A program made the translations under genes and the position numbers. DNA of 36,609 nt, taken from the IMG/VR virus record IMGVR_UViG_3300021963_000342, positions 1-36,609 of that record, one strand, 5' to 3'. The notes below the pieces were generated by a model. The model saw only the letters and a program-made list of their open reading frames with translations. It made no database searches and was not told the DNA's origin. Of the stretch, positions 17,041 through 36,046 are shown in pieces; position 1 is the first letter of the stretch, and every line of letters starts with the position of its first letter. The DNA comes from a virus.

Positions 17041-17056
17041 GGTGGTTATAACCACC
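17041..17056. promoter_or_regulatory. Perfect 16-bp palindrome, candidate operator
   Basis: GGTGGTTATAACCACC is fully self-complementary. It lies in the AT-rich divergent control region between minus-strand starts at 16592 and the late operon, and contains a TTATAA core that could overlap a promoter. Confidence 0.55.
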
Positions 17057-17096
17057 AATGGGCCATTTCCTTTATCACCCTCTATTAGCAATCAAT

Positions 17097-17192
17097 CTTC
17101 TGACTGCATCTAAAGATGCATATGTCAGAAGAAATAGGGAATGGCTATTTCCATTCCCCTTGCTTAACGCCTTTTGGGCTTGCAAGGGGAAT
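17097..17192 (+). ncRNA. Structured leader with mutually exclusive hairpins
   Basis: Hairpin 1 (17097-17131) pairs CTTCTGAC with GTCAGAAG outside and TGCATCT with AGATGCA inside. Hairpin 2 pairs GGGAATGG (17137-17144) with CCATTCCC (17151-17158). Hairpin 3 pairs ATTCCCCTTGC (17153-17163) with GCAAGGGGAAT (17182-17192), eleven perfect pairs that reuse part of hairpin 2, so 2 and 3 cannot coexist. This is the layout of an attenuator or riboswitch expression platform, 35 bases before the first late gene. It could instead be a DNA-level element. Confidence 0.5.
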
Positions 17193-17226
17193 AGGCCATC
17201 CCATAGAACCCCGACCCCTTAACCGC

Positions 17227-17607
17227 ATGAAACCCAAAACTCACAACGGAGACGACAAGCCACGTCGCCCGTTCCAGCGCAGACAAGACTTCGAGACGCC
17301 CTGGGCTCGGGCGTGGCGCCGATCGCCGGAGCGGATGCGTGAGCACGTCAATCGGATGACCGAGGCACGGACGGCCAAGGCCGAGGAGCGGGCGTCGCTC
17401 ATCCAGGCTTTGTTCGACATGATGCCCTCGGAGCCGATGCGGCCGTACGTCCTCCGCGACAGGTTGATTGAGCTGTGGTCTACGGCCTACGGTGAGGAAC
17501 TTACACTCAAGGCCGCTTGGCTGGAAATCCGCTGCGCCATCCGGCAGGGGCTGGTCGGACGGACGGATGACGGGGACTACATCCCGCGGCATTCGACGGA
17601 GCGATAG
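17227..17607 (+). CDS. Hypothetical 126-aa basic protein, first gene of the late operon
   Basis: The start is MKPKTHNGDDK at 17227; the frame is open upstream but crosses the leader hairpins. The first half is strongly basic (RRPFQRRQDFETPWARAWRRSPERMREHVNRMTEART). The second half is helical and winged-helix-like (PYVLRDRLIELWSTAYGEELTLKAAWLEIRCAIRQGLVG). A DNA-binding regulator is plausible from charge and position. Family unknown. Confidence 0.65.
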   Translation: MKPKTHNGDDKPRRPFQRRQDFETPWARAWRRSPERMREHVNRMTEARTAKAEERASLIQALFDMMPSEPMRPYVLRDRLIELWSTAYGEELTLKAAWLEIRCAIRQGLVGRTDDGDYIPRHSTER

Positions 17608-17660
17608 TTGTTGACAAGGCGGCGGCCCTGGCCATCAATCAGCAGGCAAGGGCGACGCAC

Positions 17661-17861
17661 TTGCGACATATCGACATCGACCACGAAGATTATCGGCAGC
17701 TGAAGGACGGCGCCGCGGAATTGCGTCGGGTCGGTTCACGGTGGTTGCGGCACGCGGCCGAGATCGGAAAGTCAGACGTGACGCTGTCGAACTTGATGGC
17801 CCGCGAAGCCGCGGTCGCGTTGGACGTGGCTACGAGGCTGGAGGAAGTGCTCGAGCAATGA
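17661..17861 (+). CDS. Hypothetical 66-aa helical protein with uncertain start
   Basis: The only standard start is TTG 17661, but the frame is open back to 17571 and its translation upstream (VVDKAAALAINQQARATH) looks protein-like. An ATA at 17604 would overlap the previous stop in the ATGA style used elsewhere. The protein is helical and charged, ending EEVLEQ, and its stop overlaps the next start as ATGA. TTGACA (17611-17616) with ATCAAT 17 bases on could be an internal promoter. Confidence 0.5.
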   Translation: MRHIDIDHEDYRQLKDGAAELRRVGSRWLRHAAEIGKSDVTLSNLMAREAAVALDVATRLEEVLEQ

Positions 17862-18433
17862 GCAAGGCGTCCGACATGGCCGCGATCTACGCCGCGTGGT
17901 GGCGCAAGCTGTCCCCCGGCGAAAGAGTGTCTTTGTGCGAACAAGGCTTCGACCCTAAGAACCCTTCATGGGCCGGCATCCCACTCGCTCACCGCTACGT
18001 CGATAGCGACCGCTCATCCCATTACGATGCGGTCGATGGTCAGACCGACAACACCTTCAAGCCATTCGCAGTCACGCCACGCGGCTACGACGTTGACTAC
18101 GCCTTGGCGATGCGCTGGCAAGCCGAGCAGGCGCAGCCCGAGAACCTTATGAGCGAACGAACCTTCACCTTCCAGGAGATGCTCGACATCCTGCGGAAGG
18201 TCATAGCACCGTGGACGGATTCGCAGAGCCCCGACGTGCGGCTCTTCGGGACGTGCCAATACATCGCCCTCGGGGTGCCTGGGCAACCGACGATGACGGA
18301 GCTGGCCAAGCGGCACGGCGTGACGCGGGCCGAGATCAGCCGTCGGGTGAAGCACATCCAGCGCAAGATGAACTTGCCGCCGTCGATGTACATGAAGTCC
18401 GACCACGCCTGTGCACGGCTCAAACGCAAATGA
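17858..18433 (+). CDS. Helix-turn-helix protein, sigma-like regulator candidate
   Basis: This 191-residue protein starts at MSKASDMAAIY (ATGA overlap). Its C-terminal part has PTMTELAKRHGVTRAEISRRVKHIQRKM, a clear HTH of the sigma region 4 or Sak/Crp type, at about residues 150-178. The N-terminal part has WWRKLSPGERVSLCEQGFDP. Located two genes before the small terminase, it could activate late transcription or assist packaging. It is a candidate reader of the repeated late start-associated element. Confidence 0.65.
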   Translation: MSKASDMAAIYAAWWRKLSPGERVSLCEQGFDPKNPSWAGIPLAHRYVDSDRSSHYDAVDGQTDNTFKPFAVTPRGYDVDYALAMRWQAEQAQPENLMSERTFTFQEMLDILRKVIAPWTDSQSPDVRLFGTCQYIALGVPGQPTMTELAKRHGVTRAEISRRVKHIQRKMNLPPSMYMKSDHACARLKRK

Positions 18434-18663
18434 GCCGACCACGCTACCAAATCTTCATCGGCTACGACTCCAGCGACAAGGGTCGAGTGCGTTACTATTT
18501 CCAAGACACCGACCCTGGCTGTGACACAGGCATGAATCGAGGAGTTAATTACGGGATGGTACTGCTGTACAAGGGACGTAACTTTGTGTTCAAGTTCAAT
18601 CCGCATGACGCCATCGAGTACTGCATCGCCCTCAACGCGGAAGACGCAGTCAAACGCAAATGA
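18430..18663 (+). CDS. Hypothetical 77-aa protein
   Basis: The start MSRPRYQIFIGYDS overlaps the previous stop as ATGA, and its own stop overlaps the TerS start the same way. It is beta-rich (IFIGYDSSDKGRVRYYFQDTD, MVLLYKGRNFVFKFNPHDA). No family was recognised. Both this gene and its predecessor end in KRK. Confidence 0.65.
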   Translation: MSRPRYQIFIGYDSSDKGRVRYYFQDTDPGCDTGMNRGVNYGMVLLYKGRNFVFKFNPHDAIEYCIALNAEDAVKRK

Positions 18664-19292
18664 AAATCACCAAGGTCGAATTCGCCGGACGCCTCGGCAC
18701 ATCCAAGCAACAGGTGCAGAAGTGGGTCGAGCAGGGTATGCCCATCGACTCCATCGAGTCAGCTGAAGCATGGGTCATGGCCAAACGGGCCAAGGGCGGT
18801 TCCGCGGACACCGTGCCGATGAAGCCCGACAAGGACTTCGACGAGACGGTCGAGAAGCAGCGCGAACTCAAGGCCATCGCCTACAAGAAGTACCTTGACG
18901 ACATCGACACGCCCGAGGCGTCCAAGTCGTATGCGACCTACGACAAGCTGGTGAAGACCTTGGTCACCCTCGAGAAGGAGATGCTGGCCCGCCAGATTGC
19001 ATCGAGGGAACTCATCCGCACCCAGACCGCCATCGAGCGCTTCGGCAAGGTGCTCTCCGACCTACGGCAGCAACTCATCCAACTCGGCACAAAGGTGGCC
19101 CCCAAGGCGAACCCAGACCACCCTGGACGGGCGCTGAAGGCCATCGACGAGGAAATCAACCGCATCCTATCCCGCATTGCCGAAACGGCCGTGGAAGCCG
19201 AGCAGGGGGTCACGGAAGGCACGTCTGATGAGGTTGACCCGACCGAACTGGAGATTGTCGAGGACGGGGAGGTCGAAGAAGATACCGAATGA
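18660..19292 (+). CDS. Small terminase subunit, Nu1-like
   Basis: This 210-residue protein begins MKITKVEFAGRLGTSKQQVQKWVEQGMPID, the winged/MerR-like HTH found at the N-terminus of lambda gpNu1-type TerS proteins. Its middle is a helical multimerisation region (RELKAIAYKKYLDDIDTPEASKSYATYDKLVKTL), and its end is acidic (EIVEDGEVEEDTE). It would recognise the cos/pac site and recruit TerL, whose start overlaps its stop. Confidence 0.82.
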   Translation: MKITKVEFAGRLGTSKQQVQKWVEQGMPIDSIESAEAWVMAKRAKGGSADTVPMKPDKDFDETVEKQRELKAIAYKKYLDDIDTPEASKSYATYDKLVKTLVTLEKEMLARQIASRELIRTQTAIERFGKVLSDLRQQLIQLGTKVAPKANPDHPGRALKAIDEEINRILSRIAETAVEAEQGVTEGTSDEVDPTELEIVEDGEVEEDTE

Positions 19293-21142
19293 TTGACCCA
19301 GCCGATACCTACGAGCGGCACCTCCGTGCCATCATGGCCCCAGACCCAGACGGCGACATCGTCGATTGGCTGGAGTCCAACATCAAATCGATGCCCGGTG
19401 CTATGCCCGGTGCCTTCCGCGTAGAGTCCACGCCGTACCTTGCGCCCATCCTGCGGGCAATGTGCGACCCCGAGATTCAGACCATTGTAGTCTTCGGTGC
19501 GGTGCAAATGGGCAAGTCCACCCTTCTGGAGCTGTGGTCTGCCTACATCGCCGGCCGAGCTCCCGGCCCGACCTTGCTGCTCCAGGACGTCGATCAGAAC
19601 GCCAAGGACTGGCGGCTCGACCGACTCAAGCACATCTGGGATCACACGCCGGCCGTACGCTCCCGCATCAGCACGACCGAGAAGTCCAACTGGCACACGA
19701 ACCAATTCCAGCGCTGCACGATGTGGGTGCTCGGGGCCGAGAACAAACGCAACCTCCAGCGTCGTTCCATCCGCTACCTTGGCGGTGACGAAGTCTGGCT
19801 CTGGAAGAAAGGCCACCTCAACGAAGCCTTGCGACGTCGTACCGCGTTCACTTGGAACGGCAAGTCGGTCTTCATCTCGCAAGGTGGCCATGAGGGGGAT
19901 GACATCACAAACCTTTGGAACAACACCGACCGCCGCGAATGGATGTTCCGATGCCTGTCTTGCGACGCCCAGCAGGCTTATGAATTCGAGCAGCTGATTT
20001 ACCCGCCGGAAGCCAAGGGAGGCGATGGATGGGACATCGACAAGGTCAAGAAAGGCGTAAAGTACAAGTGCAAGTCCTGCGGTCATATGCACGACGATTC
20101 ATTCGTCACACGCACGGAAATGAACGCGAAAGGGGCTTACGTCCCCATGAATCCGACAGCCCAGTCCGGCATCGTCGGGTTCCATTGGAACGCCCTGTGC
20201 AGCCAATGGGGTATGTCATTCGGCGATCTAGCCGCAGAAGCCATCATGGCCAAGAAGGCTTTCGACGAGCACGGTGACGAAACGAGTCGTGTGGAGTTCA
20301 AGCAGAAGAGATTGGCCATATCCTGGAGCGATGAGCCGGATGACAACGGAGGTGAAGTGCTACCGAGCGGATACCGCATCATCGACCCCTGGGAAGACGA
20401 AGGTGCGCTCGTCGATGGAAAACTGCAAGCGGCTCCGATCACCGAAGAGCACCGAAAGTCCAAGATATTCGCCAATCTCAGATTTCTTACCGTGGACGTC
20501 CAGCGCGAAGGCTACTACGCCACCCTGCGGGCGTGGTCGTCGGACGGCAAGAGCCGCGGCAAGGGTTGGCATTACTTCAAGACCGACGACGAACTGCGGG
20601 CCTTCCAGATCAAGAACGAGGTCGCCAACTTCTTCGTTTTCCTGGACTCCGGCGACGGCCCCAACACCGATTCGGTCTATCGCCTATGCGCCCGATACGG
20701 TTGGAACGCCACCAAGGGTTCCGGCCAAAATGAGTTCGCTTGGCGTGTCCAGACGCCCTACGGCATCAAGGTGGCCTACCGACCCTACCAGCGGGCTAAG
20801 GTCATCCAGGTCGGTGCCCAGTCGCTCAAGCTGTACGTCTTCTCAAACCTTGTGTTCAAAGACACGCTTACCCGCCTACGCAGGGCAGGCCACCACACCT
20901 ACCCCGAGGATTACGGCGACGAGTACCGCAAGCAGATGCAGTCCGAGCACCGTACTAAGAACAACAACGGCACCCCCATTTGGGTGCCCATCGGCGACCG
21001 AGCAAACCACCTTTGGGACTGCGAGGTAATGGGCATCCTGCCGGCGATGATGGCCAAGCTGATCGGCAAGGGCAAGAACCGCGGTGCCACCCCGACCGCT
21101 GAAGACGAAAAGCCAGAAAAGGAAGCTACGGAATCCGCTTGA
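19289..21142 (+). CDS. Large terminase subunit, GpA family
   Basis: This 617-residue protein is the packaging motor and nuclease. The ATPase part has a Walker A-like VFGAVQMGKSTLLELW near residues 69-83 and acidic GGDEVWLWKKG near 163. A zinc ribbon follows (RCLSC near 222 and YKCKSCG near 260). The nuclease part begins LTVDVQREGYYATL near 400, with LDSGD near 455 and RANHLWDCEVMGIL near the end. GpA-type terminases usually cut at cos sites, so the virion DNA may have cohesive ends even though the genome assembles as a circle. The C-terminal tail is charged. Confidence 0.92.
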   Translation: MIDPADTYERHLRAIMAPDPDGDIVDWLESNIKSMPGAMPGAFRVESTPYLAPILRAMCDPEIQTIVVFGAVQMGKSTLLELWSAYIAGRAPGPTLLLQDVDQNAKDWRLDRLKHIWDHTPAVRSRISTTEKSNWHTNQFQRCTMWVLGAENKRNLQRRSIRYLGGDEVWLWKKGHLNEALRRRTAFTWNGKSVFISQGGHEGDDITNLWNNTDRREWMFRCLSCDAQQAYEFEQLIYPPEAKGGDGWDIDKVKKGVKYKCKSCGHMHDDSFVTRTEMNAKGAYVPMNPTAQSGIVGFHWNALCSQWGMSFGDLAAEAIMAKKAFDEHGDETSRVEFKQKRLAISWSDEPDDNGGEVLPSGYRIIDPWEDEGALVDGKLQAAPITEEHRKSKIFANLRFLTVDVQREGYYATLRAWSSDGKSRGKGWHYFKTDDELRAFQIKNEVANFFVFLDSGDGPNTDSVYRLCARYGWNATKGSGQNEFAWRVQTPYGIKVAYRPYQRAKVIQVGAQSLKLYVFSNLVFKDTLTRLRRAGHHTYPEDYGDEYRKQMQSEHRTKNNNGTPIWVPIGDRANHLWDCEVMGILPAMMAKLIGKGKNRGATPTAEDEKPEKEATESA

Positions 21143-21149
21143 CGTGACT

Positions 21150-21206
21150 AATTGACGTCCTTGAATCGAGATAAGGCTGGCCGCATCTCGGTTAGGGGCG
21201 TCATTG
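21150..21206. other. Nested inverted repeats after the terminase gene
   Basis: TGACG (21153-21157) pairs with CGTCA (21199-21203), and inside it CGAGAT (21167-21172) pairs with ATCTCG (21185-21190). Outside, AAT and ATT can extend the stem with a bulge. There is no T-run, so it is not a simple terminator. It may stabilise or process the late mRNA, or be part of a packaging site next to the terminase genes. Confidence 0.4.
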
Positions 21207-21247
21207 GTGGCTCTGGTGACAGCGTGGTCGTGATGCGGTCAGCCCCC

Positions 21248-21269
21248 TTTACATGGGGCTAAAAACAAG
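21248..21269 (+). promoter_or_regulatory. Late start-associated element, copy 1
   Basis: TTTACA, five bases (TGGGG), CTAAAAAC, AAG, then directly the ATG of the connector gene. It belongs to a family of five with invariant spacing. Confidence 0.75.
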
Positions 21270-21536
21270 ATGGCACGCGCCCAAGGCATTTTTCTTGTTT
21301 TGGAAATCTCCGATATCGAAGATATCGTGGCTACCGCCGTTACTTTGCTCAAGCAGGGCAAGACGATGATGGAATACGCAGACTCCGGCACGTCCGTGAC
21401 CAAGGAGTTCCCCATGACCATCCAGATGACCCTGCTGGAGGCACGCTATGCTCTGCAAGTGAAAGACCCCCAGCGTTATGGTGCAATCGATAAGACGCGG
21501 GTCATCAATATGCTGAACAACTTCCGCGGCCTCTGA
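21270..21536 (+). CDS. Small head protein in the gpW position
   Basis: This 88-residue protein (MARAQGIFLVLEISDIEDIV to NMLNNFRGL) is helical, with an ALQVKDPQRYGAIDKTRV segment. It sits between TerL and portal, where lambda encodes the head-tail joining protein gpW, but sequence similarity to gpW is not evident to me. Its TGA shares a base with the portal ATG (TGATG). A late start-associated element abuts its start codon. Confidence 0.6.
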   Translation: MARAQGIFLVLEISDIEDIVATAVTLLKQGKTMMEYADSGTSVTKEFPMTIQMTLLEARYALQVKDPQRYGAIDKTRVINMLNNFRGL

Positions 21537-23155
21537 TGCGCAAAGAAAAGACCCCCAAGAAGTCGCCCGCTCGGGCGTCTAAAATCCCGAAGATCGCCCC
21601 TGGCGTCAAGGTGAACCCTGCGCTCAAGAAGCAGGCTTCCACCGGCCCTGGCATCTTCTCCAACTTCGAGTCCGCGAAGTTCAGCAACAAGCGCAGTTGG
21701 ATTTGGTCGTCGTGGCCGCAGGACTTCAAGAAGACCATGACGGTCTTCGACCGCATGGAGACGACCCGCCGGATGCGCTGGTTGGAGCTCAATGCGGGGC
21801 TCATCCGACAGGTCATCGCCGACATCGCGATGTACTCGGTAGGCTCGGGCATCAAGGTGCAGGCCCAATCCGGCAACGATGCGTGGGATGACCAGGCCGA
21901 AGCGTACTTCAAGAAGTGGGGTTCCCGTGCGACCGATATCACCGGCCGCTATTCGTTCTTCGAGATCCAGCACATCATCTGCAGGCTCATCGACCGCGAC
22001 GGTGAAGTGTTCGTGGTCAAGACCAAGGGCAAGGACGGTATGCCGAAGCTCCAGATCATCGAGTCCCACAAGGTCGGCAACCCCACGTCGGAGTCCCCGC
22101 CTCCTGGAATGGTGGATGGCATCCTCTTCGGCCCCTACGGTGCCCCAGAATATTATAACGTAATTCGCTCGGACGGCTCCAGCCGCCGCGTGCCGGCCAA
22201 TGCAATGCTCCACCTGTACGAGCCCGAGCTGGCCTCTGGCGCCCGTGCGTACAGCCCGCTTCAGCACTCGATCAACAATCTGATTGATATGCTGGAAATC
22301 CTCTCACTTGAGAAGGTCGCAGTAAAGACGAACACGGACGTCGTACGCACCATCAACCGCGAGAACGCCCAGTTCGACGGCACCCAGTCCGACTTTGAAG
22401 CCTTCGGGATGCGTCCCCAGGATTACGGCAACAACGGCCTCACCGACCCCAACGAGGCGTCCACGTTCCTCGGCGGCAAGACCATCGCCCTCGCCCCTGG
22501 CGAGAAGCTGGAGTCTTTCGAGTCCAACCGACCCAACGCCACGTTCACGGGTTTCATCGAGCACCTCATCCGCGACTCGCTCGCCGGCGTGCTGCCGTAC
22601 GAATTCGTCCACGATCCGACCAAGGCGGGGGGCGTTACCATGCGCTTCGTGGTCGCAAAGGCCGACCGCAAGTTCCAGCACCGTCAGTCGGTGCTCATCC
22701 AGCGCTTCCTCACGCCGGTCTGGGGTTACGTCATTGGCAAGGCCATCAAGGACGGCAAGCTGCCTCCCATCAACACCTTCATGCAAGTGACGTGGACGAC
22801 CCCTCGCCGCGTCACCGTCGATGCCGGCCGAGACGCCCAGCAGACCCGCCTCGACATTGAAACGGGCATCAAGTCCATCACGGACTTCCACCTCGAGAAC
22901 GGCGACGACCCGAAGGAAAAGCTCCGCGAGAACGCCGCCGAGAAGGCGTACATCAAGCAGCTGGCCGACGAGTACGAAATCCAGCCTTCGGCCATCTACA
23001 AGCCCCAGAACCTCAACATCGCCGACGTCAACGCATCCTTCGCCGAGGAAGAACCAGGCGAGACGATGTCGTATATGGACGACGGCGAAGAGGTGAAGGT
23101 CAGCGTAGACGACCCCAACGTCAAACCCAAGACCGCAACCCCCGCGGACGAATAA
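21536..23155 (+). CDS. Portal protein, lambda family
   Basis: This 539-residue protein starts with a basic segment (KEKTPKKSPARASK). It continues with the lambda-type portal core: RRMRWLELNAGLIRQVIADIAMYSVGSGIKVQAQ, RYSFFEIQHIICRLIDRDGEVFVVKTK, ANAMLHLYEPELASGARAYSPLQHSINNLIDM, and LPYEFVHDPTKAGGVTMRFV. Twelve copies would form the DNA channel at one capsid vertex and dock TerL. Length and gene order agree with the family. The protease gene begins three bases after the stop. Confidence 0.92.
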   Translation: MRKEKTPKKSPARASKIPKIAPGVKVNPALKKQASTGPGIFSNFESAKFSNKRSWIWSSWPQDFKKTMTVFDRMETTRRMRWLELNAGLIRQVIADIAMYSVGSGIKVQAQSGNDAWDDQAEAYFKKWGSRATDITGRYSFFEIQHIICRLIDRDGEVFVVKTKGKDGMPKLQIIESHKVGNPTSESPPPGMVDGILFGPYGAPEYYNVIRSDGSSRRVPANAMLHLYEPELASGARAYSPLQHSINNLIDMLEILSLEKVAVKTNTDVVRTINRENAQFDGTQSDFEAFGMRPQDYGNNGLTDPNEASTFLGGKTIALAPGEKLESFESNRPNATFTGFIEHLIRDSLAGVLPYEFVHDPTKAGGVTMRFVVAKADRKFQHRQSVLIQRFLTPVWGYVIGKAIKDGKLPPINTFMQVTWTTPRRVTVDAGRDAQQTRLDIETGIKSITDFHLENGDDPKEKLRENAAEKAYIKQLADEYEIQPSAIYKPQNLNIADVNASFAEEEPGETMSYMDDGEEVKVSVDDPNVKPKTATPADE

Positions 23156-23158
23156 CCA

Positions 23159-24205
23159 ATGAGCAATATCCAGAACGCTTTCGCAAGCCTCACCCCAGTC
23201 CTTATCGAAGGACACAAGGCCAAGGCATACATCGACAAGGTCAACGCCTTCGACCCCGCTTCCCGCAAGGCCGGCGACGACCTCGAGGATATGCTCGAGA
23301 TGATCTTCGGTGAGCCCCCAGAGCTCATCAAGGCCGGTTCGTTGGCCATCATCCCCGTACGCGGCGTCATTGGTTCCGAACTCACGGAACTGGAGAAACT
23401 TATGGGCTGCATCGACGTCGAAGACGTTGAGGAGATGCTTGAGGAAGCCGAGCGTGACCCGAACATCAAGACCATCCTGTTCGACTTCAATTCCCCCGGC
23501 GGCACCGTCACGGGCGTCCCAGAGCTGGCCAACCGCATCTTCAACGCGAAGAAGCGCACCATCGGCTGGACGTGCTCCCAGTCGTGCTCCGGCTCCATGT
23601 GGCTGATGAGCCAATGCGACGAGGTCTACGTCAGCGGTTCCTCGACCGTAGGCTCGATTGGTGTCTACATCCCTGTTCTCGACGAGTCCAAGGCTTACGC
23701 CGAGGAAGGCTACGAGATGAAGCTGCTCAAGTCCGGCTGGGCAAAGGGAGCCGGCTACCCTGGCACCAAGATGTCGCCCGAGCAGGAAAAGCTGTTCCTC
23801 GACGACGTCGCCGAAACGCACGCTTGGTTTATCTCCCACATCAAGCGCAAGCGCACGCTCGCCAAGGATGAGGATATGCAGGGCCAATGCTGGTCTGGAC
23901 GCAAGGCCGCCGCCAAGATGCTCGTCACGGGTATCAAGGATACTCTAGACGACGTGCTAAAGCATATCGGTGCAGACGTCTACGCCAACCTCGAGCGCCA
24001 GGAGCCTGCCGTTGAATCCGCTGGTTCCTACGCCGCGGACGTCAGCCCCGAGCAGGGCGAGAAGGAAGAAGTCGAGCCCATCAAGGATCTGAAGAAGAAA
24101 AAGAAGGACAAGAAGTCCGATGAGGATGATGACGAAGAAGAGGAGATGCCGAAGGACATCCCCAATGATTCCTGCCCGCCCGTAGATACGGACGGCAAAG
24201 GCTGA
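23159..24205 (+). CDS. S49-family (SppA/ClpP-like) prohead protease
   Basis: This 348-residue protein carries the S49 core: IPVRGVIG near 65, LFDFNSPGG at 107-115, then SCSGSMWLMS with Ser144 aligned to the catalytic serine, and TVGSIGV. MKLLKSGWAKGAGYP contains lysines suitable for the dyad. It would process scaffold and capsid during head maturation, like lambda gpC. The C-terminus is a highly charged tract, with a lysine run followed by an Asp/Glu run (about residues 310-335), perhaps an internal core or DNA-mimic tail. In lambda the scaffold lies within this gene; here it is separate. Confidence 0.9.
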   Translation: MSNIQNAFASLTPVLIEGHKAKAYIDKVNAFDPASRKAGDDLEDMLEMIFGEPPELIKAGSLAIIPVRGVIGSELTELEKLMGCIDVEDVEEMLEEAERDPNIKTILFDFNSPGGTVTGVPELANRIFNAKKRTIGWTCSQSCSGSMWLMSQCDEVYVSGSSTVGSIGVYIPVLDESKAYAEEGYEMKLLKSGWAKGAGYPGTKMSPEQEKLFLDDVAETHAWFISHIKRKRTLAKDEDMQGQCWSGRKAAAKMLVTGIKDTLDDVLKHIGADVYANLERQEPAVESAGSYAADVSPEQGEKEEVEPIKDLKKKKKDKKSDEDDDEEEEMPKDIPNDSCPPVDTDGKG

Positions 24206-24208
24206 TTA

Positions 24209-24230
24209 TTGACACTTGGCTAAAAACAAG
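24209..24230 (+). promoter_or_regulatory. Late start-associated element, copy 2
   Basis: TTGACA, CTTGG, CTAAAAAC, AAG and directly ATG 24231. The in-frame TTG at 24216 lies inside the element, so it is unlikely to be the start. Confidence 0.75.
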
Positions 24231-24689
24231 ATGACCCTCGAAAAGCTCTACACCGACCTCAAGGAAGCCTTCACGGGCAAGACCGCTGAAGTCGAAGCCA
24301 AGGCCGGTATCATTACTTCGCTCGAAGCCAAGGTGGCCGAATTGACCGCCGCTGCCGCCGAGAAGGAAACCGCTTTCGCTTCCCTCGCCGAAGCGAACAA
24401 GGAGCTCTCCGAAAAGTTGGCCGCTGCTGAAGCCCTTTCCAAGAAGGCCAGCGAAGACGTCGCACGCATCGCCGCCAACCAGAAGACCGCTGGTGCCCAG
24501 GCCGCCGAGATCGTCGCCTCTGCCGGCGTCGAGCCCGTAGAAATCACCCACGGCGAAAGCGCCGCAGCCACGAAGACCGACGACGAAATCGTCCAAGAGT
24601 GGTCTGCCATGAAGCAAGGCACCAAGGAGAAGCAAGCCTTCTTCGACCGCAACAAGTCGGTCATCCTCCGCGTGCTCAAGCTCTCGTAA
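24231..24689 (+). CDS. Scaffold-like coiled-coil protein
   Basis: This 152-residue protein starts MTLEKLYTDLKEAF. Residues 10-95 are an Ala/Glu/Lys coiled coil (ITSLEAKVAELTAAAAEKETAFASLAEANKELSEKLAAAE). The end is compact and charged (EWSAMKQGTKEKQAFFDRNKSVILRVLKL). Position between protease and capsid, together with this composition, fits a scaffolding protein that is removed from the prohead by the protease. Confidence 0.72.
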   Translation: MTLEKLYTDLKEAFTGKTAEVEAKAGIITSLEAKVAELTAAAAEKETAFASLAEANKELSEKLAAAEALSKKASEDVARIAANQKTAGAQAAEIVASAGVEPVEITHGESAAATKTDDEIVQEWSAMKQGTKEKQAFFDRNKSVILRVLKLS

Positions 24690-24724
24690 TCCCCCTCTCA
24701 ACTTCAACCCCATAAAATACTACT

Positions 24725-25639
24725 ATGTCTAACAGCATCGGAGGCTTGACCCTCCAGCTCGTCGCCGAAGAGTCCCTCCGCACCCTGGTGCCGGAACTCG
24801 TTCCGCTCACCAAGATTGCGGTCACCGACTTCGGCTCCTACGTTGCCGAGCGCGGTTCCGTCGTCCACACCCGCTACGCTAATTCGTTCGCCTCGACGAA
24901 GTACAATCCGGCCAACGGCTTCGTCCCGACCGCCGCTGTCTCGACCGACGTTGCGATCACCCTCGAAGAGCCCGACTACGTCGATCTGGCTTTCACCGAC
25001 TTTGAAGCCTCCACGCTCTCGCTGGAACGCCTCCGTCGCCTGTTCTTCGCCCCTGTCGCCAACGCCGTCCAGAAGTCCCTCTTCGACAGCGTCCTCTCCA
25101 AGGTGACCTCGGCCAGCTTCACGACCGCCGCCTACTCCGGCGCCAAGTCCTCGTTCAACCGCATCGCCGTCGCCAACGCCGCGACCGCCCTCACCAAGGC
25201 TAACCTCCCCCATAAGGATCGCCACATCCTCCTCAGCCCCGATGCTCTCGGTCAACTGGTGCAGGATCCGACCGTCGCCCAGGCGTTCTCGTACGGCAAC
25301 GCCGACGTCATCCAGAACAACGCCATCGACAAGAAGCTCCACGGCTTTGGCATCAGCGAGTACAACGGCTTCCCGACCAGCGGCACGGCCTACACGGAAG
25401 GTCTTAACGGTATCGCTTCCTGCAAGGAAGGCTTGGTCATCGTCTCCCGCGTGCCGGCCTCGCCGACCACGGGCGGTGGCGAACAGATGAACGTGACCGA
25501 CCCCGAGTCGGGCTTCACCTTCGCTCTCCGTTACTTCTACAACTGGCAGATGGGCACGCACAATATGCAGGCCATCTGGCTGACGGGTTCCTCTGTCGGT
25601 AACCCGAACGCTCTCCAGCGTATCGCCTTCACGTCCTAA
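24725..25639 (+). CDS. Major capsid protein
   Basis: This 304-residue protein follows the scaffold, and a strong terminator follows it 56 bases downstream. It begins MSNSIGGLTLQLVAEESLRTL. It shows features typical of an HK97-fold coat of the P22/gp5-like branch: LERLRRLFFAPVANAVQKSLFD, HILLSPDALGQLVQDP, VIQNNAIDKKLHGFGISEYNGFP, and a late LRYFYNWQMGTHNMQAIWL. Codon use is markedly more regular (C-ending) than in neighbours, as in highly expressed genes. It has no start-associated element of its own and probably shares that of the scaffold gene. Confidence 0.85.
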   Translation: MSNSIGGLTLQLVAEESLRTLVPELVPLTKIAVTDFGSYVAERGSVVHTRYANSFASTKYNPANGFVPTAAVSTDVAITLEEPDYVDLAFTDFEASTLSLERLRRLFFAPVANAVQKSLFDSVLSKVTSASFTTAAYSGAKSSFNRIAVANAATALTKANLPHKDRHILLSPDALGQLVQDPTVAQAFSYGNADVIQNNAIDKKLHGFGISEYNGFPTSGTAYTEGLNGIASCKEGLVIVSRVPASPTTGGGEQMNVTDPESGFTFALRYFYNWQMGTHNMQAIWLTGSSVGNPNALQRIAFTS

Positions 25640-25695
25640 TCGGGCGTAGGTTTTTGGAGGGTAGCGCATCCCCTCCACCGCGAAAATGAAAAGAG

Positions 25696-25727
25696 GCCCA
25701 CTCCTTCGGGGGTGGGCTTCTTCATTT
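25696..25727 (+). terminator. Rho-independent terminator after the capsid gene
   Basis: A nine-pair stem (GCCCACTCC with GGGGTGGGC, one G-U pair) is closed by a UUCG tetraloop and followed by TTCTTCATTT. Its T-run merges with the TTTACA of the next start-associated element, so termination and re-initiation are adjacent. It would lower expression of tail genes relative to capsid. Confidence 0.85.
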
Positions 25728-25746
25728 ACACAGGGCTAAAAACAAG
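25725..25746 (+). promoter_or_regulatory. Late start-associated element, copy 3
   Basis: TTTACA, CAGGG, CTAAAAAC, AAG and directly ATG 25747. It comes directly after a terminator, which favours a transcription-start role for the element. Confidence 0.75.
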
Positions 25747-26082
25747 ATGGCCATCCAAGATGAATGGGCTGCGGACGCCGCCGAAATCCTTGCCGAGATC
25801 CCCAAGGCGGTAACCGTGCGGAATACCCCTGGAGGCTCTCCCGTGGCCCTTAACTGCTTGATGTCGCAGCCGATGATTATGCAGGACTTGGAAACCGGCG
25901 GCTTCACGTCCTCGACGTCCTATGACGTAAAGTTCCTGCGCACCGACGCCGCAGCCAACCCTGGACTCATCGCCTACGGCAACATTATTACCTACCAAGG
26001 GGAGGATTTCCGCATCGTGGCCCTCGTCAATCGCCCGCCTTCCGCGTGGGTGATTTGCAAGGTTCAGACGCTGGTGCAATGA
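25747..26082 (+). CDS. Head-closure/connector-like protein
   Basis: This 111-residue protein (MAIQDEWAADAAEILAEIPK) has a beta-rich end, GNIITYQGEDFRIVALVNRPPSAWVICKVQ. That segment resembles head-tail joining proteins (an ITYxGExFRI strand pair then a hydrophobic strand). First gene after the capsid, as in lambda/HK97-like phages. Its stop overlaps the next start as ATGA. Confidence 0.6.
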   Translation: MAIQDEWAADAAEILAEIPKAVTVRNTPGGSPVALNCLMSQPMIMQDLETGGFTSSTSYDVKFLRTDAAANPGLIAYGNIITYQGEDFRIVALVNRPPSAWVICKVQTLVQ

Positions 26083-27056
26083 GCATCGGTTTCCAGTTCC
26101 CGGAGCCAGTCAAAGGTCTTACGTTCAACAACAAGGAGCTCAATCGGGCTCTTATGGTCTATGCCTCACTTTCAAAGCGGAAGATGGCCGACGTCCTCAA
26201 AGACCAGACCCGCAAGTTCTGCATCGATCTTTGCGACTATTTCCCGCCCTTCTCTGGTTCGGCGCCGGCAACCCACAGCGGCGGGGAGGGCGGTTTTGGC
26301 AATCGAGCACGCAACAAGGGCCGCGACGCCGTCAATCGGGATATCCGGCATATCTTCGAGCCCATTGCCCAAGCCCCTGCTGGCGACGTTGCTGCCAAGG
26401 GTAGCCATTCCATCTTCGCAGCCTGGCTTAATGCCAAGATGAAGCTGCCGGAACCTCATTACCCGGAATACATCTTCAGCATCGTCAAGAAAAAGGGCGT
26501 CTGGTTGACTGCCGAAACCGAGTGGGACTACTTCAAGGGTGTAGAGAAAAACCGCGGGAAGTACAAATGCAATTTCCTGCTTACACCTTCCGACGCTGAG
26601 TTGCGCAAGGAACATTTCCGCATTCGTCACGGAAAGAACATCCGCGTGAACAAGGGTCAAGGCCGAGAACGGTACTTCGTGGACGACTGGAAGGCCGTCG
26701 AGCGATATATCAAGAAGACCCAGCAAAGGGTCGGCAAACTCAAGTCTGGATGGTATGCCGCCGGCGAAAAGCTCGGTAAGATGCCAACCTCAGCTTGGAT
26801 TCGGAATCAAGGTTCGGCTACGTCCGTATGCGTACCGATGCTCCAGGGCAACCATCCACAAATCACCATCGGAAACACCATCGCACGCGACCACAGCCAA
26901 GGATGGCACTTTTTCTCAAAAGCCCGCGATCACCGCCATTACTCAATCCGAGTGGCCATCTACCATATGTTCAAGAACTCCAAGAATGCCCGTAAGGTTC
27001 TTGGCGCCAAACAGGCCATCGTGATGCTTGAAAAACAATCCAACGAACTTAAATGA
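26079..27056 (+). CDS. Neck or tail-completion protein, HK97 gp10-like region
   Basis: This 325-residue protein starts at MSIGFQFPEPVKG (ATGA overlap). The C-terminal half has TQQRVGKLKSGWYAAGEKLGKMPTSAWIRNQG, a pattern typical of gp10-like neck proteins (basic helix, GW, proline, tryptophan). At 325 residues it is far longer than the usual 100-150, with a large basic insert rich in aromatic and charged residues. It may carry an added domain. The next gene overlaps by four bases. Confidence 0.55.
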   Translation: MSIGFQFPEPVKGLTFNNKELNRALMVYASLSKRKMADVLKDQTRKFCIDLCDYFPPFSGSAPATHSGGEGGFGNRARNKGRDAVNRDIRHIFEPIAQAPAGDVAAKGSHSIFAAWLNAKMKLPEPHYPEYIFSIVKKKGVWLTAETEWDYFKGVEKNRGKYKCNFLLTPSDAELRKEHFRIRHGKNIRVNKGQGRERYFVDDWKAVERYIKKTQQRVGKLKSGWYAAGEKLGKMPTSAWIRNQGSATSVCVPMLQGNHPQITIGNTIARDHSQGWHFFSKARDHRHYSIRVAIYHMFKNSKNARKVLGAKQAIVMLEKQSNELK

Positions 27057-27496
27057 GCGTCCCATTCTTCTCCGCACGAACCGTCATCGAAAACAAGCTG
27101 ACGCCCTATCTGGCCGGCCTGCTGCCTGGCGTTGCCGTTCACAAGGGCGTCACGCCCGAGATTAAGACCCTGCCTATGGTCACGGTCTATGCGGAGTCCG
27201 CAAAGCCCGCAGAATCCCTTGGAAGCCGTCCTTTGGGGAATTACAACGTCACCATCAGTATCCGCGTGATCTCATCGGCCGACGACGAAACCTTGGACAC
27301 CCACCGGGACAGGGTGCAGTCGGTGGTCAACGCAATGGCCAACATCGACGCCATCAAGGCTCTTTGGACGTACTCTTCGGACGGCCTTCTTTACGACGTA
27401 TTTATCAATGGAGGGGATGAGGAGGGGGAGCACCAGCGCAAGTACGGTAACATGATCCAGTATACGGCCTATGTCGTAGCCCCCCCCGCCCCTTGA
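27053..27496 (+). CDS. Tail terminator-like protein
   Basis: This 147-residue protein begins MSVPFFSARTVIENKLTPYL. It has the mixed fold seen in gpU/minor tail-Z-like terminators: VHKGVTPEIKTLPMVTVYAES, YNVTISIRVISSADDETLDTHRDRVQSVVNAM, GNMIQYTAYVV. It would cap the tail tube and join it to the neck. Its TGA lies inside the TTGACA of the next start-associated element. Confidence 0.65.
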   Translation: MSVPFFSARTVIENKLTPYLAGLLPGVAVHKGVTPEIKTLPMVTVYAESAKPAESLGSRPLGNYNVTISIRVISSADDETLDTHRDRVQSVVNAMANIDAIKALWTYSSDGLLYDVFINGGDEEGEHQRKYGNMIQYTAYVVAPPAP

Positions 27497-27522
27497 CACT
27501 TGGCTAAAAACAAAGAACAACA
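27493..27522 (+). promoter_or_regulatory. Late start-associated element, copy 4
   Basis: TTGACA, CTTGG and CTAAAAAC are followed by 11 A-rich bases before ATG 27523. It overlaps the previous stop codon. Confidence 0.7.
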
Positions 27523-27867
27523 ATGGCAGACGCTATCGAATACGGTGTAGCCCTTTTCTACGGGCTCCGAGACAAGACGTCCATCACCTACATGGTGGTT
27601 CAGTCTGATGACCTTACCGACACCCTGGCCCTCGATGTTGAAGTCGCTGACGAAGAAGGTCGCGTCATCACCGACCACCTCGACGATCGCCGGAAGGAAA
27701 TCAACATTGACGGTGTTCTGAAGTTGTCTGACGCCATCCCGGACATCGCCACTCAATTCACCTACAGCGGCGTTCAGTATATCCTAAAATCGATTGACGA
27801 CAAGGGTAGCAACAAGGACTACCGCAAGGTCACCGTCAAGGGCGTCAAGTACCAGGAGATCAACTAA
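27523..27867 (+). CDS. Tail tube candidate, 114 aa
   Basis: The beta-rich protein starts MADAIEYGVALFYGLRDK and ends TYSGVQYILKSIDDKGSNKDYRKVTVKGVKYQEIN. It sits between the tail terminator and the chaperone, the normal place of the major tail tube protein, and has its own start-associated element. At 114 residues it is short for a tube protein, so the 308-residue protein at 29671 is an alternative tube candidate. Confidence 0.5.
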   Translation: MADAIEYGVALFYGLRDKTSITYMVVQSDDLTDTLALDVEVADEEGRVITDHLDDRRKEINIDGVLKLSDAIPDIATQFTYSGVQYILKSIDDKGSNKDYRKVTVKGVKYQEIN

Positions 27868-27900
27868 GCCCGAAAGGGCTGACCGAGATGGACGCTCGGT
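27867..27900 (+). promoter_or_regulatory. Two hairpins, second one holding a start codon in its loop
   Basis: AGCCC-GAAA-GGGCT (27867-27880) has a GNRA tetraloop. It is followed by ACCGAG (27882-27887) pairing with CTCGGT (27895-27900), and the seven-base loop is the ATG (27888) and next codon of the chaperone gene. This would regulate initiation or processing between the two genes. Confidence 0.5.
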
Positions 27901-28478
27901 ACCTAAAGGCCAGCACAGCCTTGCCCTCACCTGTAAAGGTCTGCGGCAAGGTATTGCTTCCCTTCTGCCTACGGCATAGACTTCTCTTGGAGTCGATTGA
28001 CTCCCCCTTTTTAAAGCCGGAAAACTCCTCTTTCCGTGCATGGGACGTCATCGTCGCGGTACGCATCCTGTCCGGCTACGACAAGCAATGCATCGGCAAG
28101 CCGCTCACGTTACGCGAATGGTTCCAATTTCAGTTCCTGCGCCGTAACCGCACGGTGTTGGCCAAAAACGTCGGACGGATTATTGGCTACCTGTCCATCA
28201 ACTTTTCCTACCCTAAGTTCTGGGAGAAGGAAAGCAGCGGCAAGAAGGTCGAGAAGCTCCCCTGGGTGCTTTCCTGCGTGTCCACCTTGACCCGCAACGG
28301 ATGCACGCTTGAAGAGGCATGGACAATGCCGGAATCCGAAGCAATCTGGATGTCCGTATGCCACGGCATTTACAACGGAAACGAGATCCAAATCCTTTCC
28401 ACGGAGGAAGAGGAGCAGCTCGATAACTTCGACGAAATCGTGAACAAATTCAAGTCCCGCATGGGCGACATCAAGTAA
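27888..28478 (+). CDS. Tail assembly chaperone-like protein
   Basis: This 196-residue protein lies directly before the tape measure gene. It contains SFRAWDVIVAVRILSGYD, PLTLREWFQFQFLRRN, and CTLEEAWTMPESEAIWMSVCHGIYNG, the last being typical of chaperones that coat the tape measure (EEAxxMPxxxA). Most phages make two chaperone forms by frameshifting; here no second frame follows and the next gene starts three bases after the stop. The start codon sits in a hairpin loop. Confidence 0.65.
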   Translation: MDARYLKASTALPSPVKVCGKVLLPFCLRHRLLLESIDSPFLKPENSSFRAWDVIVAVRILSGYDKQCIGKPLTLREWFQFQFLRRNRTVLAKNVGRIIGYLSINFSYPKFWEKESSGKKVEKLPWVLSCVSTLTRNGCTLEEAWTMPESEAIWMSVCHGIYNGNEIQILSTEEEEQLDNFDEIVNKFKSRMGDIK

Positions 28479-28481
28479 CCT

Positions 28482-29669
28482 ATGGCAAGCGACATCACAG
28501 TCACGCTGGGCATCGACGCCAGCCAGATGCAGAATGGCCTCAATGAAGTCGTCAACGCGGCAAGGAAGGCTGAAGGCCAAGGCCGTAACGGGGTTATGTC
28601 ATGGCTGAAGACCTTCAACCAGGGGGGCATTGGTGGATTGATGGCAAAGGCGCTAGGCCCAGAAGCTCAAATTATCTATGAGGCGTTGGCGCCTGTCTTT
28701 GACGCCATCAAAGCGGTCGTCGAGAAGGCCAAGGAGCTCCGTAACCTTTCTTTGGCTACCGACATCCCTACCGGCGAGCTCCGTAAGCTTGAGGTAGTCG
28801 CTGAACGCTCCGGCGTTAGCCTCGGTCAATTGGCCCATTCAGTATCAGAATTCAACAAGAACATGGGCAAAGCCCGCATCTCTGGATCGGAGATGAACAA
28901 CCTATTGAACAAGCTTGGAGTCAGCCAGGAGGAAATCAGCCGAGGCACCTATGACTATAACAAGGGTCTGCGTGACCTTGCAAAGGCGCACAAGGCCGGC
29001 ACCGACGCAGCCACCCTGGCTTACTACGGCAACGTGATGTTCGGCTCGTCCTTTGAACAGCTGCTGCCATTAATCAAGCAAGGTACTGGTGAATTGGACA
29101 AGGCCGGTCGATGGATTTACAAGACCAGCAATATCGCCAACGAGCAGCTGGCCGATATGTCCGACCGATGGGATAAGTTCTGGGCCAATCTCAAGAACGG
29201 TTTTGCCGAGTTCGTCGGCTTTGCCGATATGTACCTCAATATGACAAGGAATGCCGCCGTAACTGCGGCCACCTATGGCATGGCTTTGGTATCCCCCAAA
29301 AATGCCGCGGCAATGCTTAACGAAGGGTTCGTAGGAGGAAAGGAAGCGCGAATTCTTGCAGGCAAAACCATCGCATCTGGACTTCCGCAGGAAAAGGCAG
29401 ACGTATTCCTAAAGAAGCTTGATGAATTGGTCAACGGCGAGGCCGGCAAGAAACTGACTCCGCTTGGCCTTCAGACCGCCCAGGCAGCATCCACGCTCCA
29501 GCAGATGGGCGGCGGTGATATAGTGTCCGCGTATGCATTCAACCCGCAGGAAGAAACCGCAAAAAACACGGCAAGAATGGTAGAACTTCAACAGCAACAG
29601 CTCGACGAACAGCGCCGAGGAAACGAAAAATCCAACCCACCTAAGGGAAGCCTTTACCGCTCAAAATAA
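28482..29669 (+). CDS. Tape measure protein, short
   Basis: This 395-residue protein has the tape-measure opening (ITVTLGIDASQMQNGLNEVVNAARKAEGQ). It continues with SLATDIPTGELRKLEVVAERSGVSLGQLAHSVSEFNKNM, common in this family, two hydrophobic segments (FAEFVGFADMYLNM, AVTAATYGMALVSP), and a Gln-rich charged end. By the usual proportionality of about 0.15 nm per residue, the tail would be about 60 nm, short for a siphovirus. CCT immediately precedes the ATG. Confidence 0.85.
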   Translation: MASDITVTLGIDASQMQNGLNEVVNAARKAEGQGRNGVMSWLKTFNQGGIGGLMAKALGPEAQIIYEALAPVFDAIKAVVEKAKELRNLSLATDIPTGELRKLEVVAERSGVSLGQLAHSVSEFNKNMGKARISGSEMNNLLNKLGVSQEEISRGTYDYNKGLRDLAKAHKAGTDAATLAYYGNVMFGSSFEQLLPLIKQGTGELDKAGRWIYKTSNIANEQLADMSDRWDKFWANLKNGFAEFVGFADMYLNMTRNAAVTAATYGMALVSPKNAAAMLNEGFVGGKEARILAGKTIASGLPQEKADVFLKKLDELVNGEAGKKLTPLGLQTAQAASTLQQMGGGDIVSAYAFNPQEETAKNTARMVELQQQQLDEQRRGNEKSNPPKGSLYRSK

Positions 29670-29670
29670 A

Positions 29671-30597
29671 ATGTCAGACACATCAATTCGATATGGCAAT
29701 GACCTCAGTTATCGCGTCATCCAGCCCGGTTGGGTGATCGAGAGCGACGGCTTCGGTCTGGTGCAGGCCCGCGTGACGTACAAGTGGGACGCAAGCCCGG
29801 AAAACATCCAGCAGTTCACTTCTTACTTCTACCTCGGTGCTTCTTGCGACATCGACGGCTGGTCTTCGCTGGGTATGTCCAAGGCTTCGATGACCCGCGA
29901 GAAGGGCGACATCCTAACGATCGTGGCAGAGTATGTCGGCATCGACCCGACCATCAATGGTGGTAGCCGTACTAACCCCATCATGTCCATGTCGGCATCT
30001 TCTTCGTCCGAGGACATCACGCACCACCCAAACTTCTACAAGATTGCGTGCACCAGCATTACTGGTTCCACAGATCCGCAAGTCCCATTGGCTGGCCCTC
30101 CCCCGACTGCTGGTGGCTTTGAGAAGGACACCGCCATCAATCCGAACCGAGCTTTGTGGACTCCACGCGTTCAGAATACCGGCGCCACCAACAACTGCCA
30201 GTTCGTGGCCTTCCTGCCCGCACAGAAGAGCACCGAGCCCGTCAACATCAAGGCCGGCGTAAAGTCGTACTACAAGCCTCAGAACACGATTCGGATGACG
30301 CAGTACTTCGATACCGAAAACGAAGCCTTGTCCAACGCTTCTTACGTCGGTTGGTTTACCGACGGCACCTACTTCGGTATGCCTCCAGAATATACGGCTC
30401 TTTGCGGTGAAGGTGCTCCGGCGTACCCAGGCAGACTTTACTACATCCCAGAGTATGAAGCATTGGTCAGCCGTTCATTCTTGGTTACTAGTTACTCCGT
30501 AGAGCGCTTCGGCAACATCTGGAAGACCACGGGCGAGTTTATGCTCTCCGGCCTTACTGGTTGGGATCCAGACATCTACCCTGGCCCCACCCAGTAA
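29671..30597 (+). CDS. Tail structural protein, 308 aa
   Basis: This beta-rich protein (MSDTSIRYGNDLSYRVIQPGW; VQARVTYKWDASPENIQQFTSYF; YYIPEYEALVSRSFLVTSYSVERFGNIWKTTGEFMLSGLTGWDP) follows the tape measure. It has few Lys/Arg and many Tyr, Thr and Ser, as in virion proteins. The position fits a distal tail or baseplate hub protein; a tube role is the alternative. No family was recognised. Its stop shares a base with the next ATG (TAATG). Confidence 0.6.
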   Translation: MSDTSIRYGNDLSYRVIQPGWVIESDGFGLVQARVTYKWDASPENIQQFTSYFYLGASCDIDGWSSLGMSKASMTREKGDILTIVAEYVGIDPTINGGSRTNPIMSMSASSSSEDITHHPNFYKIACTSITGSTDPQVPLAGPPPTAGGFEKDTAINPNRALWTPRVQNTGATNNCQFVAFLPAQKSTEPVNIKAGVKSYYKPQNTIRMTQYFDTENEALSNASYVGWFTDGTYFGMPPEYTALCGEGAPAYPGRLYYIPEYEALVSRSFLVTSYSVERFGNIWKTTGEFMLSGLTGWDPDIYPGPTQ

Positions 30598-31556
30598 TGG
30601 AAAACGAGTACATCAGCTCGTTTCTGGATGGCCTATACGGGGACACGACCCGCGGCCGTCAGATGCCCAGCAACGGCGTTCTTTACGACGCCAATGCCGG
30701 CGGCAGCTCATTGTCCCTTCCTGCCGACTTATACGAGCCAGGTCTAAATGACTTCTTGGTCAACGTAAACGGCAACGGCAGCGAGTGGACGGTCAACGTC
30801 GCCAAGGGGACGGTTTTCTACCGATCCAGCCCTAATGTCTTCAATGGAGGCTGTCTTCGTCAATTCGTTGTCCAAGGCTTTGCCGTATACCCGAAAGAAT
30901 CAAAGACGGAAGGTGATTACACAGACACCCCTTGGGTTGAGAAGGGTGGATATTGCGCCATCAGCCCTTTGACCACGACCGGCGAAGGTGAAGAGGCCGT
31001 GACCACAGGGTCGAACCAATACGGCGTCTACCTTATCGCCAATCAGTACAAACTTGTCAGCTCGACTGGAATCCAGTCTGCCACGCCTTACTTGGCCTTG
31101 ATGCCTGTCAATGGAGATGCCTGGAACAAGACAAAGCCTTGGGGCGGTGAGGACGGTTGCGATCTCCAGCGCTGGTTTGAATTCTATCAGTACAAGAACG
31201 TAAGCCTGCTCCAGCCCCCCATTTCCCCCACCTATGAGGTCAGCGGCCAACTTACGGTTTCGCGTGAAGCTGTGCTCCAGAACTACAACTGCCAGCGCAT
31301 CCTTCTGGCCCTAATCACTTGGGACACCGACGCCTTGGTTTGGACGGTAAGGCAGTTCGCCGCCGGCACAATCACCATCCCATATAACCTTTGGTATAAT
31401 GGGGTTTATCCTTTCCCAGTAGAAGACCCGCCTGCCCCCTACCCAGACTGGTACGGATCCCCCCTCTATGGCCCGCAGCAGGAGGATTGGGAGGGCGATT
31501 ATACCGATTGCGACAAGTGGGATGGGACTGGCACCAGCCCAACGGTACCCGTTTAA
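30597..31556 (+). CDS. Tail-tip protein, 319 aa
   Basis: It starts MENEYISSFLDGLYGD, where TAATG overlaps the previous stop. It is beta-rich with many Tyr/Trp (FLVNVNGNGSEWTVNVAKGTVFYRSS, YGVYLIANQYKLVS, QLTVSREAVLQNYNCQRILLALITWDTDALVWTVRQFAAGTI) and a Pro/Tyr/Asp-rich C-terminus. This resembles baseplate-upper or tail-tip proteins placed before the fibre, but no family was assigned. Confidence 0.6.
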   Translation: MENEYISSFLDGLYGDTTRGRQMPSNGVLYDANAGGSSLSLPADLYEPGLNDFLVNVNGNGSEWTVNVAKGTVFYRSSPNVFNGGCLRQFVVQGFAVYPKESKTEGDYTDTPWVEKGGYCAISPLTTTGEGEEAVTTGSNQYGVYLIANQYKLVSSTGIQSATPYLALMPVNGDAWNKTKPWGGEDGCDLQRWFEFYQYKNVSLLQPPISPTYEVSGQLTVSREAVLQNYNCQRILLALITWDTDALVWTVRQFAAGTITIPYNLWYNGVYPFPVEDPPAPYPDWYGSPLYGPQQEDWEGDYTDCDKWDGTGTSPTVPV

Positions 31557-31575
31557 GGTAAGATTTTCGGGGTGG

Positions 31576-31603
31576 TTGACATAGGGCTAAAAACAGAAGC
31601 CTT
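31576..31603 (+). promoter_or_regulatory. Late start-associated element, copy 5
   Basis: TTGACA, TAGGG and CTAAAAAC are followed by nine bases before ATG 31604, in a 47-base gap between genes. Confidence 0.7.
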
Positions 31604-31918
31604 ATGGCCACGCCGTCCTTTACCTTTATTCGGGGTTCAACCTTCTCGGCCAACTGCACCTATGTGCCCGAACCCGGCTGGCCGACCGACCTTACTGGCG
31701 TGACCGTGGCCTCCCGCGTCCGCGACTCCCGCGGCTACGAGCACAAGCTGGTCTTCACGCTGACCAGCCCTACCACCTTTACTTTGTTCTTCGACAACAC
31801 GCAGTCTTGGTTCGCCGGCATTGCGTTCTGGGACTTGCTGTTTATCAACAACGGCATCGCCTACTACTCCCAGGTCGTGAACATCAACATCCTCGAAAAC
31901 GTCACGCCTAACTCCTAA
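31604..31918 (+). CDS. Small tail protein with Ig-like sandwich
   Basis: This 104-residue protein (MATPSFTFIRGSTFSANCTY) alternates hydrophobic and polar strands (VTVASRVRDSRGYEHKLVFTLTSPTTFTLFFDN) and ends SQVVNINILENVTPNS. It looks like an immunoglobulin-like beta sandwich similar to the N-terminal domains of baseplate/BppU-type proteins. TAATG links it to the fibre gene, so it probably anchors or chaperones the fibre. Confidence 0.6.
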   Translation: MATPSFTFIRGSTFSANCTYVPEPGWPTDLTGVTVASRVRDSRGYEHKLVFTLTSPTTFTLFFDNTQSWFAGIAFWDLLFINNGIAYYSQVVNINILENVTPNS

Positions 31919-35702: not shown

Positions 35703-35899
35703 TGCAAACCAAAGACAACAAGGGTCGCCCATACGACCTCGAAATCAAACAAGGCCAAACCTTCGTCCTCCATGACGGCAAGCGCGTCCTGCTGAAGTCC
35801 ACCGTGACCAAGGACATCCGCTACCTCACTTCGTGGTTCTCCATCATCGGCACCCTCGCCGAAGTCGATGGCAAGGTCGCCGAACTTAAACTTTCCTAA
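35702..35899 (+). CDS. Hypothetical 65-aa beta-rich protein
   Basis: The sequence starts MQTKDNKGRPYDLEIKQGQTFVLHDGKRVLLKS and ends GTLAEVDGKVAELKLS. It looks like a small SH3-like beta barrel. It precedes the 46-aa membrane gene by four bases. No family was recognised. Confidence 0.6.
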   Translation: MQTKDNKGRPYDLEIKQGQTFVLHDGKRVLLKSTVTKDIRYLTSWFSIIGTLAEVDGKVAELKLS

Positions 35900-36044: not shown

Positions 36045-36046
36045 TT

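Follow-up and report, generated by a model that had tools for sequence, protein, structure and literature searches.

A conserved element at late gene starts in an uncultured phage family: a probable late promoter and its candidate helix-turn-helix regulator

Results

The element and its five copies in the window

The viral record IMGVR_UViG_3300021963_000342 of IMG/VR, analyzed here over positions 1 to 36,609 (the window), carries in its rightward virion-gene region five exact copies of a 19-base element, all on the plus strand and each upstream of an open reading frame (ORF), at 21248, 24209, 25725, 27493, and 31576, as listed in the original prediction made from the letters alone. Every copy fits TTKACANNNGGCTAAAAAC at 0 mismatches, and a scan of the window allowing up to 3 mismatches returned no site beyond these five. 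Shuffled windows (n = 100, up to 3 mismatches) held a mean of 0.32 matches with a maximum of 2, and none of the 100 reached five. The evidence for the element is much stronger than was first stated. The consensus first proposed holds when written as TTKACA-NNN-GG-CTAAAAAC, but the form with an additional N matches nothing.

Immediately after the element lies an A (position 20) that forms a pyrimidine-A (YA) step with its last base, and from this YA step only a transcription start (+1) is predicted at that A. Copy 1 (21248..21266; TTTACATGGGGCTAAAAAC) would thus start at A21267, giving a leader of 3 nt before the ATG at 21270 of an 88-aa ORF, while copy 2 (24209..24227; TTGACACTTGGCTAAAAAC) would start at A24228, again 3 nt ahead of an ATG (24231; 152-aa ORF). 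For copy 3 (25725..25743; TTTACACAGGGCTAAAAAC) the predicted start is A25744 and the predicted leader 3 nt, with the ATG at 25747 opening a 111-aa ORF whose match to Phage_attach (E=0.0049) is below the cut-off. Copy 4 (27493..27511), which has the same sequence as copy 2 (TTGACACTTGGCTAAAAAC), has a predicted start at A27512 and a predicted leader of 11 nt to the ATG at 27523 (114-aa ORF), and copy 5 (31576..31594; TTGACATAGGGCTAAAAAC) one at A31595 with a predicted leader of 9 nt to the ATG at 31604 (104-aa ORF). Copies 1–3 lead straight into AAG-ATG, the ending originally ascribed to three copies, and the element-to-ATG gap is 11 nt at copy 4 and 9 nt at copy 5. The overlap of copy 4 with a stop codon was also correctly anticipated, as the TGA (27494–27496) that ends the ORF at 27053–27496 lies within its TTGACA. 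The description of the copies as preceding structural genes stands insofar as all precede virion-region ORFs, but few of the neighboring proteins are named by family models, which near the copies identify only portal, protease, capsid, tape measure, and tail-fiber proteins.

Conservation in related phages

Scanning the collection with the exact version of the element found in the window also gave many unrelated chance matches, and relatives were gathered through the major capsid protein instead (80 loci, 57–96% identity), with a second clade added through L109 and G019 and a separate set of 80 loci retrieved via the regulator protein described below. Protein similarity served to place the starts of the five orthologous genes, and the DNA preceding each was then read. 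In about 150 related contigs of two clades (major capsid 55–96% identical), the element stands at the starts of the same five orthologous genes as in the window, rather than at the random positions that the original prediction had named as speaking against it. It is present at all five positions wherever the contig sequence extends, except in a few genomes (e.g., G005 and G006) whose fifth copy precedes another gene. Searching each genome with its own version recovers exactly five copies per genome, all on the late strand (G012 and the fragment G006 yield four), and a strict family motif applied to 11 genomes gives 45 matches, 43 of which lie before an ORF on the late strand.

When the first T of TTGAC is numbered 1 (−19 if A20 is +1), the element reads TTGAC-N4-GGC-N-A-N4-Y-A in clade I and TTGACT-N3-GCG-T-W-G-N3-Y-A in clade II, and in a minor type III the blocks are one base further apart in every copy of a genome, with the A shifting along. 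TTGAC is nearly invariant over 322 dereplicated copies; in clade I (154 dereplicated copies) it carries 1.5–2 bits per base and G11-C12 about 2 bits, conservation that is in part by construction, as TTGAC, the GC block, and, in clade I, A14 belonged to the patterns searched for. No strong conservation was found upstream of position 1 in these 154 copies. Positions 19/20 and the ATG distances, by contrast with the blocks, played no part in finding copies. Among clade I copies with the ATG at position 23 or beyond, YA occupies 19/20 in 91%, compared with 1–26% at neighboring offsets; in clade II, A20 is present in 100% of 145 copies, and YA at 19/20 in 99% of those with a distant ATG (n = 75). 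As the step is kept where the ATG lies further downstream, the ATG itself does not account for it. In neither clade does an ATG begin before position 20, two at 19 and a single off-register call excepted. Most copies have the ATG at 20 at three clade II genes (1, 3, and 5) and at gene 3 of clade I, and over the whole set the ATG falls at 20–34 in most copies. Its distance from the element ranges from 0 to about 21 nt and differs by locus, whereas the spacing inside the element is fixed.

Joint change of the copies and the terminator before copy 3

The middle of the element is lineage-specific and switches in all copies of one genome together, the versions including GGCTAAAAAC, CGCTAATTCC, GGCGATA, and CCCGCGTTG. 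The identical 15 bases TTGACTCCCGCGTTG stand at all five starts in G019 and G020, and TTGACTGTGGCGGAGG at all five in L319, and in the L109-type genomes a +1-base spacing is common to all copies. Copy-to-copy similarity falls from 0.68 within a genome to 0.44 across genomes (0 of 1000 permutations), and from 0.86 to 0.63 in the clade II set (0 of 500), where the permutation retains each position's own sequence set and the between-genome comparison is of copies at different positions. Such joint change suggests that each phage has a single trans-acting reader; gene conversion among the 20-bp copies, weighed as another cause, was judged less likely.

The terminator suspected ahead of copy 3 is confirmed by computed folds as a hairpin terminator at 25691..25723 on the plus strand (47-nt fold, −26.3 kcal/mol), which separates copy 3 from the major capsid gene. 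The median fold z across all relatives is −3.2 at the third gene start, as opposed to −0.1 to −0.9 at the other four, and most of the relatives in clade I and type III have a strong hairpin and T-run that end just before copy 3. The hairpin sequences differ between phages, which indicates that the structure itself is kept. The order of terminator and then element suits a stop and restart of transcription.

A candidate regulator upstream of the terminase genes

Among the genes common to these phages, the sole DNA-binding candidate found is a helix-turn-helix (HTH) protein of 191 aa (17858..18433, plus strand) upstream of the terminase genes, which is proposed as the late regulator that reads the element. 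Homologs are 160–190 aa long, and longer in some clade II phages. The protein is conserved in relatives carrying the element, and the search with the regulator alone retrieves phages with the element in their late regions. Two other candidates were dropped: the ORF adjoining the regulator (17116..17607, plus strand), although conserved in clade I, has no similarity found in G019/G020 and is not a general part of the system, and a two-HTH protein (12796–13128, minus strand) is present in near relatives only.

Only generic HTH families match the regulator, and for the window protein none is above its cut-off. Sigma70_r4 matches 1 of 19 family members (E=0.08), sigma region 2 is not recognized, a profile search against solved structures gave nothing significant, Foldseek against PDB gave no match at E < 0.001, and the Foldseek matches in a viral library are uncharacterized phage proteins. 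AlphaFold2 models are confident for a C-terminal helical domain and poor in the middle, and the top structural matches, at Z up to 5.3, are to housekeeping sigma factors (region 4), although such values may reflect no more than a common arrangement. The recognition helix reads S-x-R-V-K in clade I and S-L-[QR]-C-R in clade II, and within clade II SLQCRK occurs with GCGTTG, SLRCRK mostly with GCGTAG, and SLRCRT with GCCTAG. This pairing of helix and element, seen by comparing sequences, is suggestive, with few independent changes behind it.

Genomic context

The virion region encodes terminase, portal, protease, capsid, tape measure, and fiber proteins. The small (18660–19292) and large (19289–21142) terminase genes, together at 18660..21142 on the plus strand, have no preceding element. 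The major capsid gene (24725..25639, plus strand), used as the query for collecting relatives, would lie inside the unit opened by copy 2; it has no element copy of its own, and an A-rich leader, CCATAAAATACTACTATG, occupies 24690–24724. A Shine-Dalgarno-like sequence is present at 1 of the 23 plus-strand starts checked in the window. No element was found in the window at the early-type genes of the opposite strand (AAA ATPase, cytosine methylase, helicase, RecT, and nuclease). The ends of the window, 1–722 and 35890–36609, overlap at 83% identity over 733 nt; they are probably the overlapping ends of a circularly permuted genome, though the divergence between them is odd, and the genome is probably near complete. 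Scans of bacterial genomes with the capsid protein for a host gave no match.

Discussion

Taken together, the present data allow a model to be proposed in which the element is probably a phage-specific late promoter, the best supported of the readings considered and the first of the two put forward by the original prediction. In this model a promoter of about 20 bp would direct transcription to start at the A at position 20, and the five copies would open five virion-gene units. Where the ATG lies at 20 the mRNA would be leaderless, and elsewhere it would have a leader of about 1–21 nt. The HTH protein (17858–18433) would act as specificity factor, binding the lineage-specific middle of the element and recruiting or reprogramming the host RNA polymerase, and the capsid transcript would be ended by the terminator just ahead of copy 3, where the promoter restarts transcription. 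The placement of the start at A20 is the simplest reading of a fixed YA step together with a start codon that is never clearly before it. Further, an ATG distance that varies by locus while the internal spacing stays fixed suits a promoter better than a signal that positions the ribosome.

It is also possible to view the element as acting in RNA, within a long late mRNA in which binding of a phage protein to it, or cleavage at its Y-A step, would control translation of the five genes, which resembles the second option of the original prediction. Its place at start codons, its fixed strand, and the scarcity of Shine-Dalgarno-like sequences are in keeping with this, the YA step is a common site of RNA cleavage, and the joint change of copies is compatible with an RNA-binding protein too. 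However, the range of 0 to about 21 nt between element and ATG counts against such a signal, variable leader length and the missing Shine-Dalgarno sequence being the better fit with a promoter; the terminator just upstream of copy 3 would require read-through for an RNA form to be made; and the sole conserved candidate regulator found has a domain of the DNA-binding type. A role in translation is considered unlikely. An operator, through which the HTH protein would repress or activate a hidden host promoter of ordinary type near each copy, would account for the co-occurrence of protein and element, but it appears improbable given the lack of strong conservation upstream of position 1, and given that a gene transcribed from downstream of an activator site cannot have its start codon right at the end of that site. 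In addition, sigma-70-like sites in 13500–32500 number 5, against 5.7 in shuffles, and none is at a copy. Recognition by an unrecognized single-subunit phage polymerase could be envisaged from the compact, T7-like form of the element, in which two recognition blocks and an adjoining predicted start make up about 20 bp ending at +1. This is very improbable, as no unassigned large ORF was seen in the early region of the window; PF00940 had no match in 14 records, although the controls were silent as well.

Several observations weigh against the late-promoter model. We know of no bacterial promoter that resembles the element; with +1 at A20 the −10 region would read NNGGCT or CCGCGT, an unusual place for a host polymerase to initiate. 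The records searched yielded no phage RNA polymerase, and sequence searches place the candidate regulator in no sigma family, its sigma-4-like fold match being weak (Z about 5) and tied with LuxR-type domains. The correspondence between recognition helix and element is mostly a single split between the two clades, and many clade II genomes have no obvious strong terminator ahead of copy 3.

The known promoter classes tested do not accommodate the element. A sigma-70 promoter with TTGACA as −35 was rejected, in agreement with the original prediction, as its −10 would fall within coding sequence, and by the usual layout (TTGACA and TATAAT about 17 bp apart, start 5–8 bp past the −10) no −10 was found at the right distance. 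A sigma-54 promoter (TGGCAC-N5-TTGC, GG and GC about 10 bp apart) was likewise rejected, TTGAC-N4-GGC having the wrong bases and spacing.

The comparisons that follow refer to the available portions of the cited papers, in which the element itself does not appear. The start-associated sequence (SAS) of cluster K mycobacteriophages is a 13-bp sequence, GGGATAGGAGCCC, with a Shine-Dalgarno core, confined to the non-structural half of the genome and lying 3–7 bp ahead of the start codons of non-structural genes, its function being untested in that paper (PMC3203893). Like the element it is short, asymmetric, of one orientation, present in multiple copies per genome, and a few bases before start codons; unlike it, the element has another sequence, stands before virion genes at 0 to about 21 nt, lacks a Shine-Dalgarno core, keeps a fixed YA, and differs in concert between lineages, such that the parallel, as originally drawn, is one of concept and not of sequence (PMC3203893). 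The promoters of phage-encoded sigma factors in phiEco32 (TAATGTATA) and phage 7-11 are −10-like elements (PMC4331800). There too a few phage-specific promoters precede structural genes and the consensus shifts between related phages, aligning the two phages' promoters requiring a one-base gap, whereas the blocks here lie at −19 to −15 (TTGAC) and −10 to −8 (GGC/GCG) and no sigma factor was recognized. The late promoters of jumbo-phage non-virion RNA polymerases (AR9, AACA-N6-TA/G; phiKZ, TATG) are likewise short, end at the transcription start (here predicted), and have pyrimidine-purine at −1/+1, but those phages encode multisubunit polymerases, none of which was found here, and AR9 leaders are 26–491 nt (PMC5312081). 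With regard to the regulator, a small HTH protein of putative DNA-binding function just upstream of the terminase genes is the arrangement of the RinA/Ltr/ArpU type. Staphylococcal RinA/Ltr switch on late genes from this position, though through one promoter with an upstream repeat site rather than five sites dispersed at gene starts (PMC13123087). Leaderless genes of Deinococcus-Thermus also have a promoter directly before the start codon, as predicted here, but theirs carries a host sigma-A type −10 motif, which the element lacks (PMC12340547). A search of the literature on verrucomicrobial leaderless transcription found nothing.

The nearest named relative is the isolated Verrucomicrobia phage P8625 (L160, NC_029047.1; capsid 27%). 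Repeated late elements in this phage, before the genes at 5448, 10772, and 15594, consist of TTGACA-N17-TATTGG/TATCTG followed by 7 nt to the ATG, and carry a GTATCC..GGATAC palindrome. They share with the element a repeated TTGACA at late gene starts and an ATG close behind, but are of sigma-70-like layout.

Phage-specific late promoters are already known as a kind, and the layout described here fits none of the classes tested. It is conceivable, if somewhat doubtful at present, that it represents a new class of promoter, in which host polymerase is redirected by a small HTH phage protein without a recognizable sigma domain 2, the start lies 19 bp downstream of the TTGAC box, head and tail genes are expressed leaderless, and element and protein diversify together. 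Under the model, 5′ ends can be predicted exactly, virion mRNAs should be leaderless, and one regulator should serve throughout a large family of phages that are uncultured and for the most part unannotated. The natural element types and their paired regulators would offer a ready set in which to study how a protein and its site change together and, if confirmed, such pairs may be a source of orthogonal promoters.

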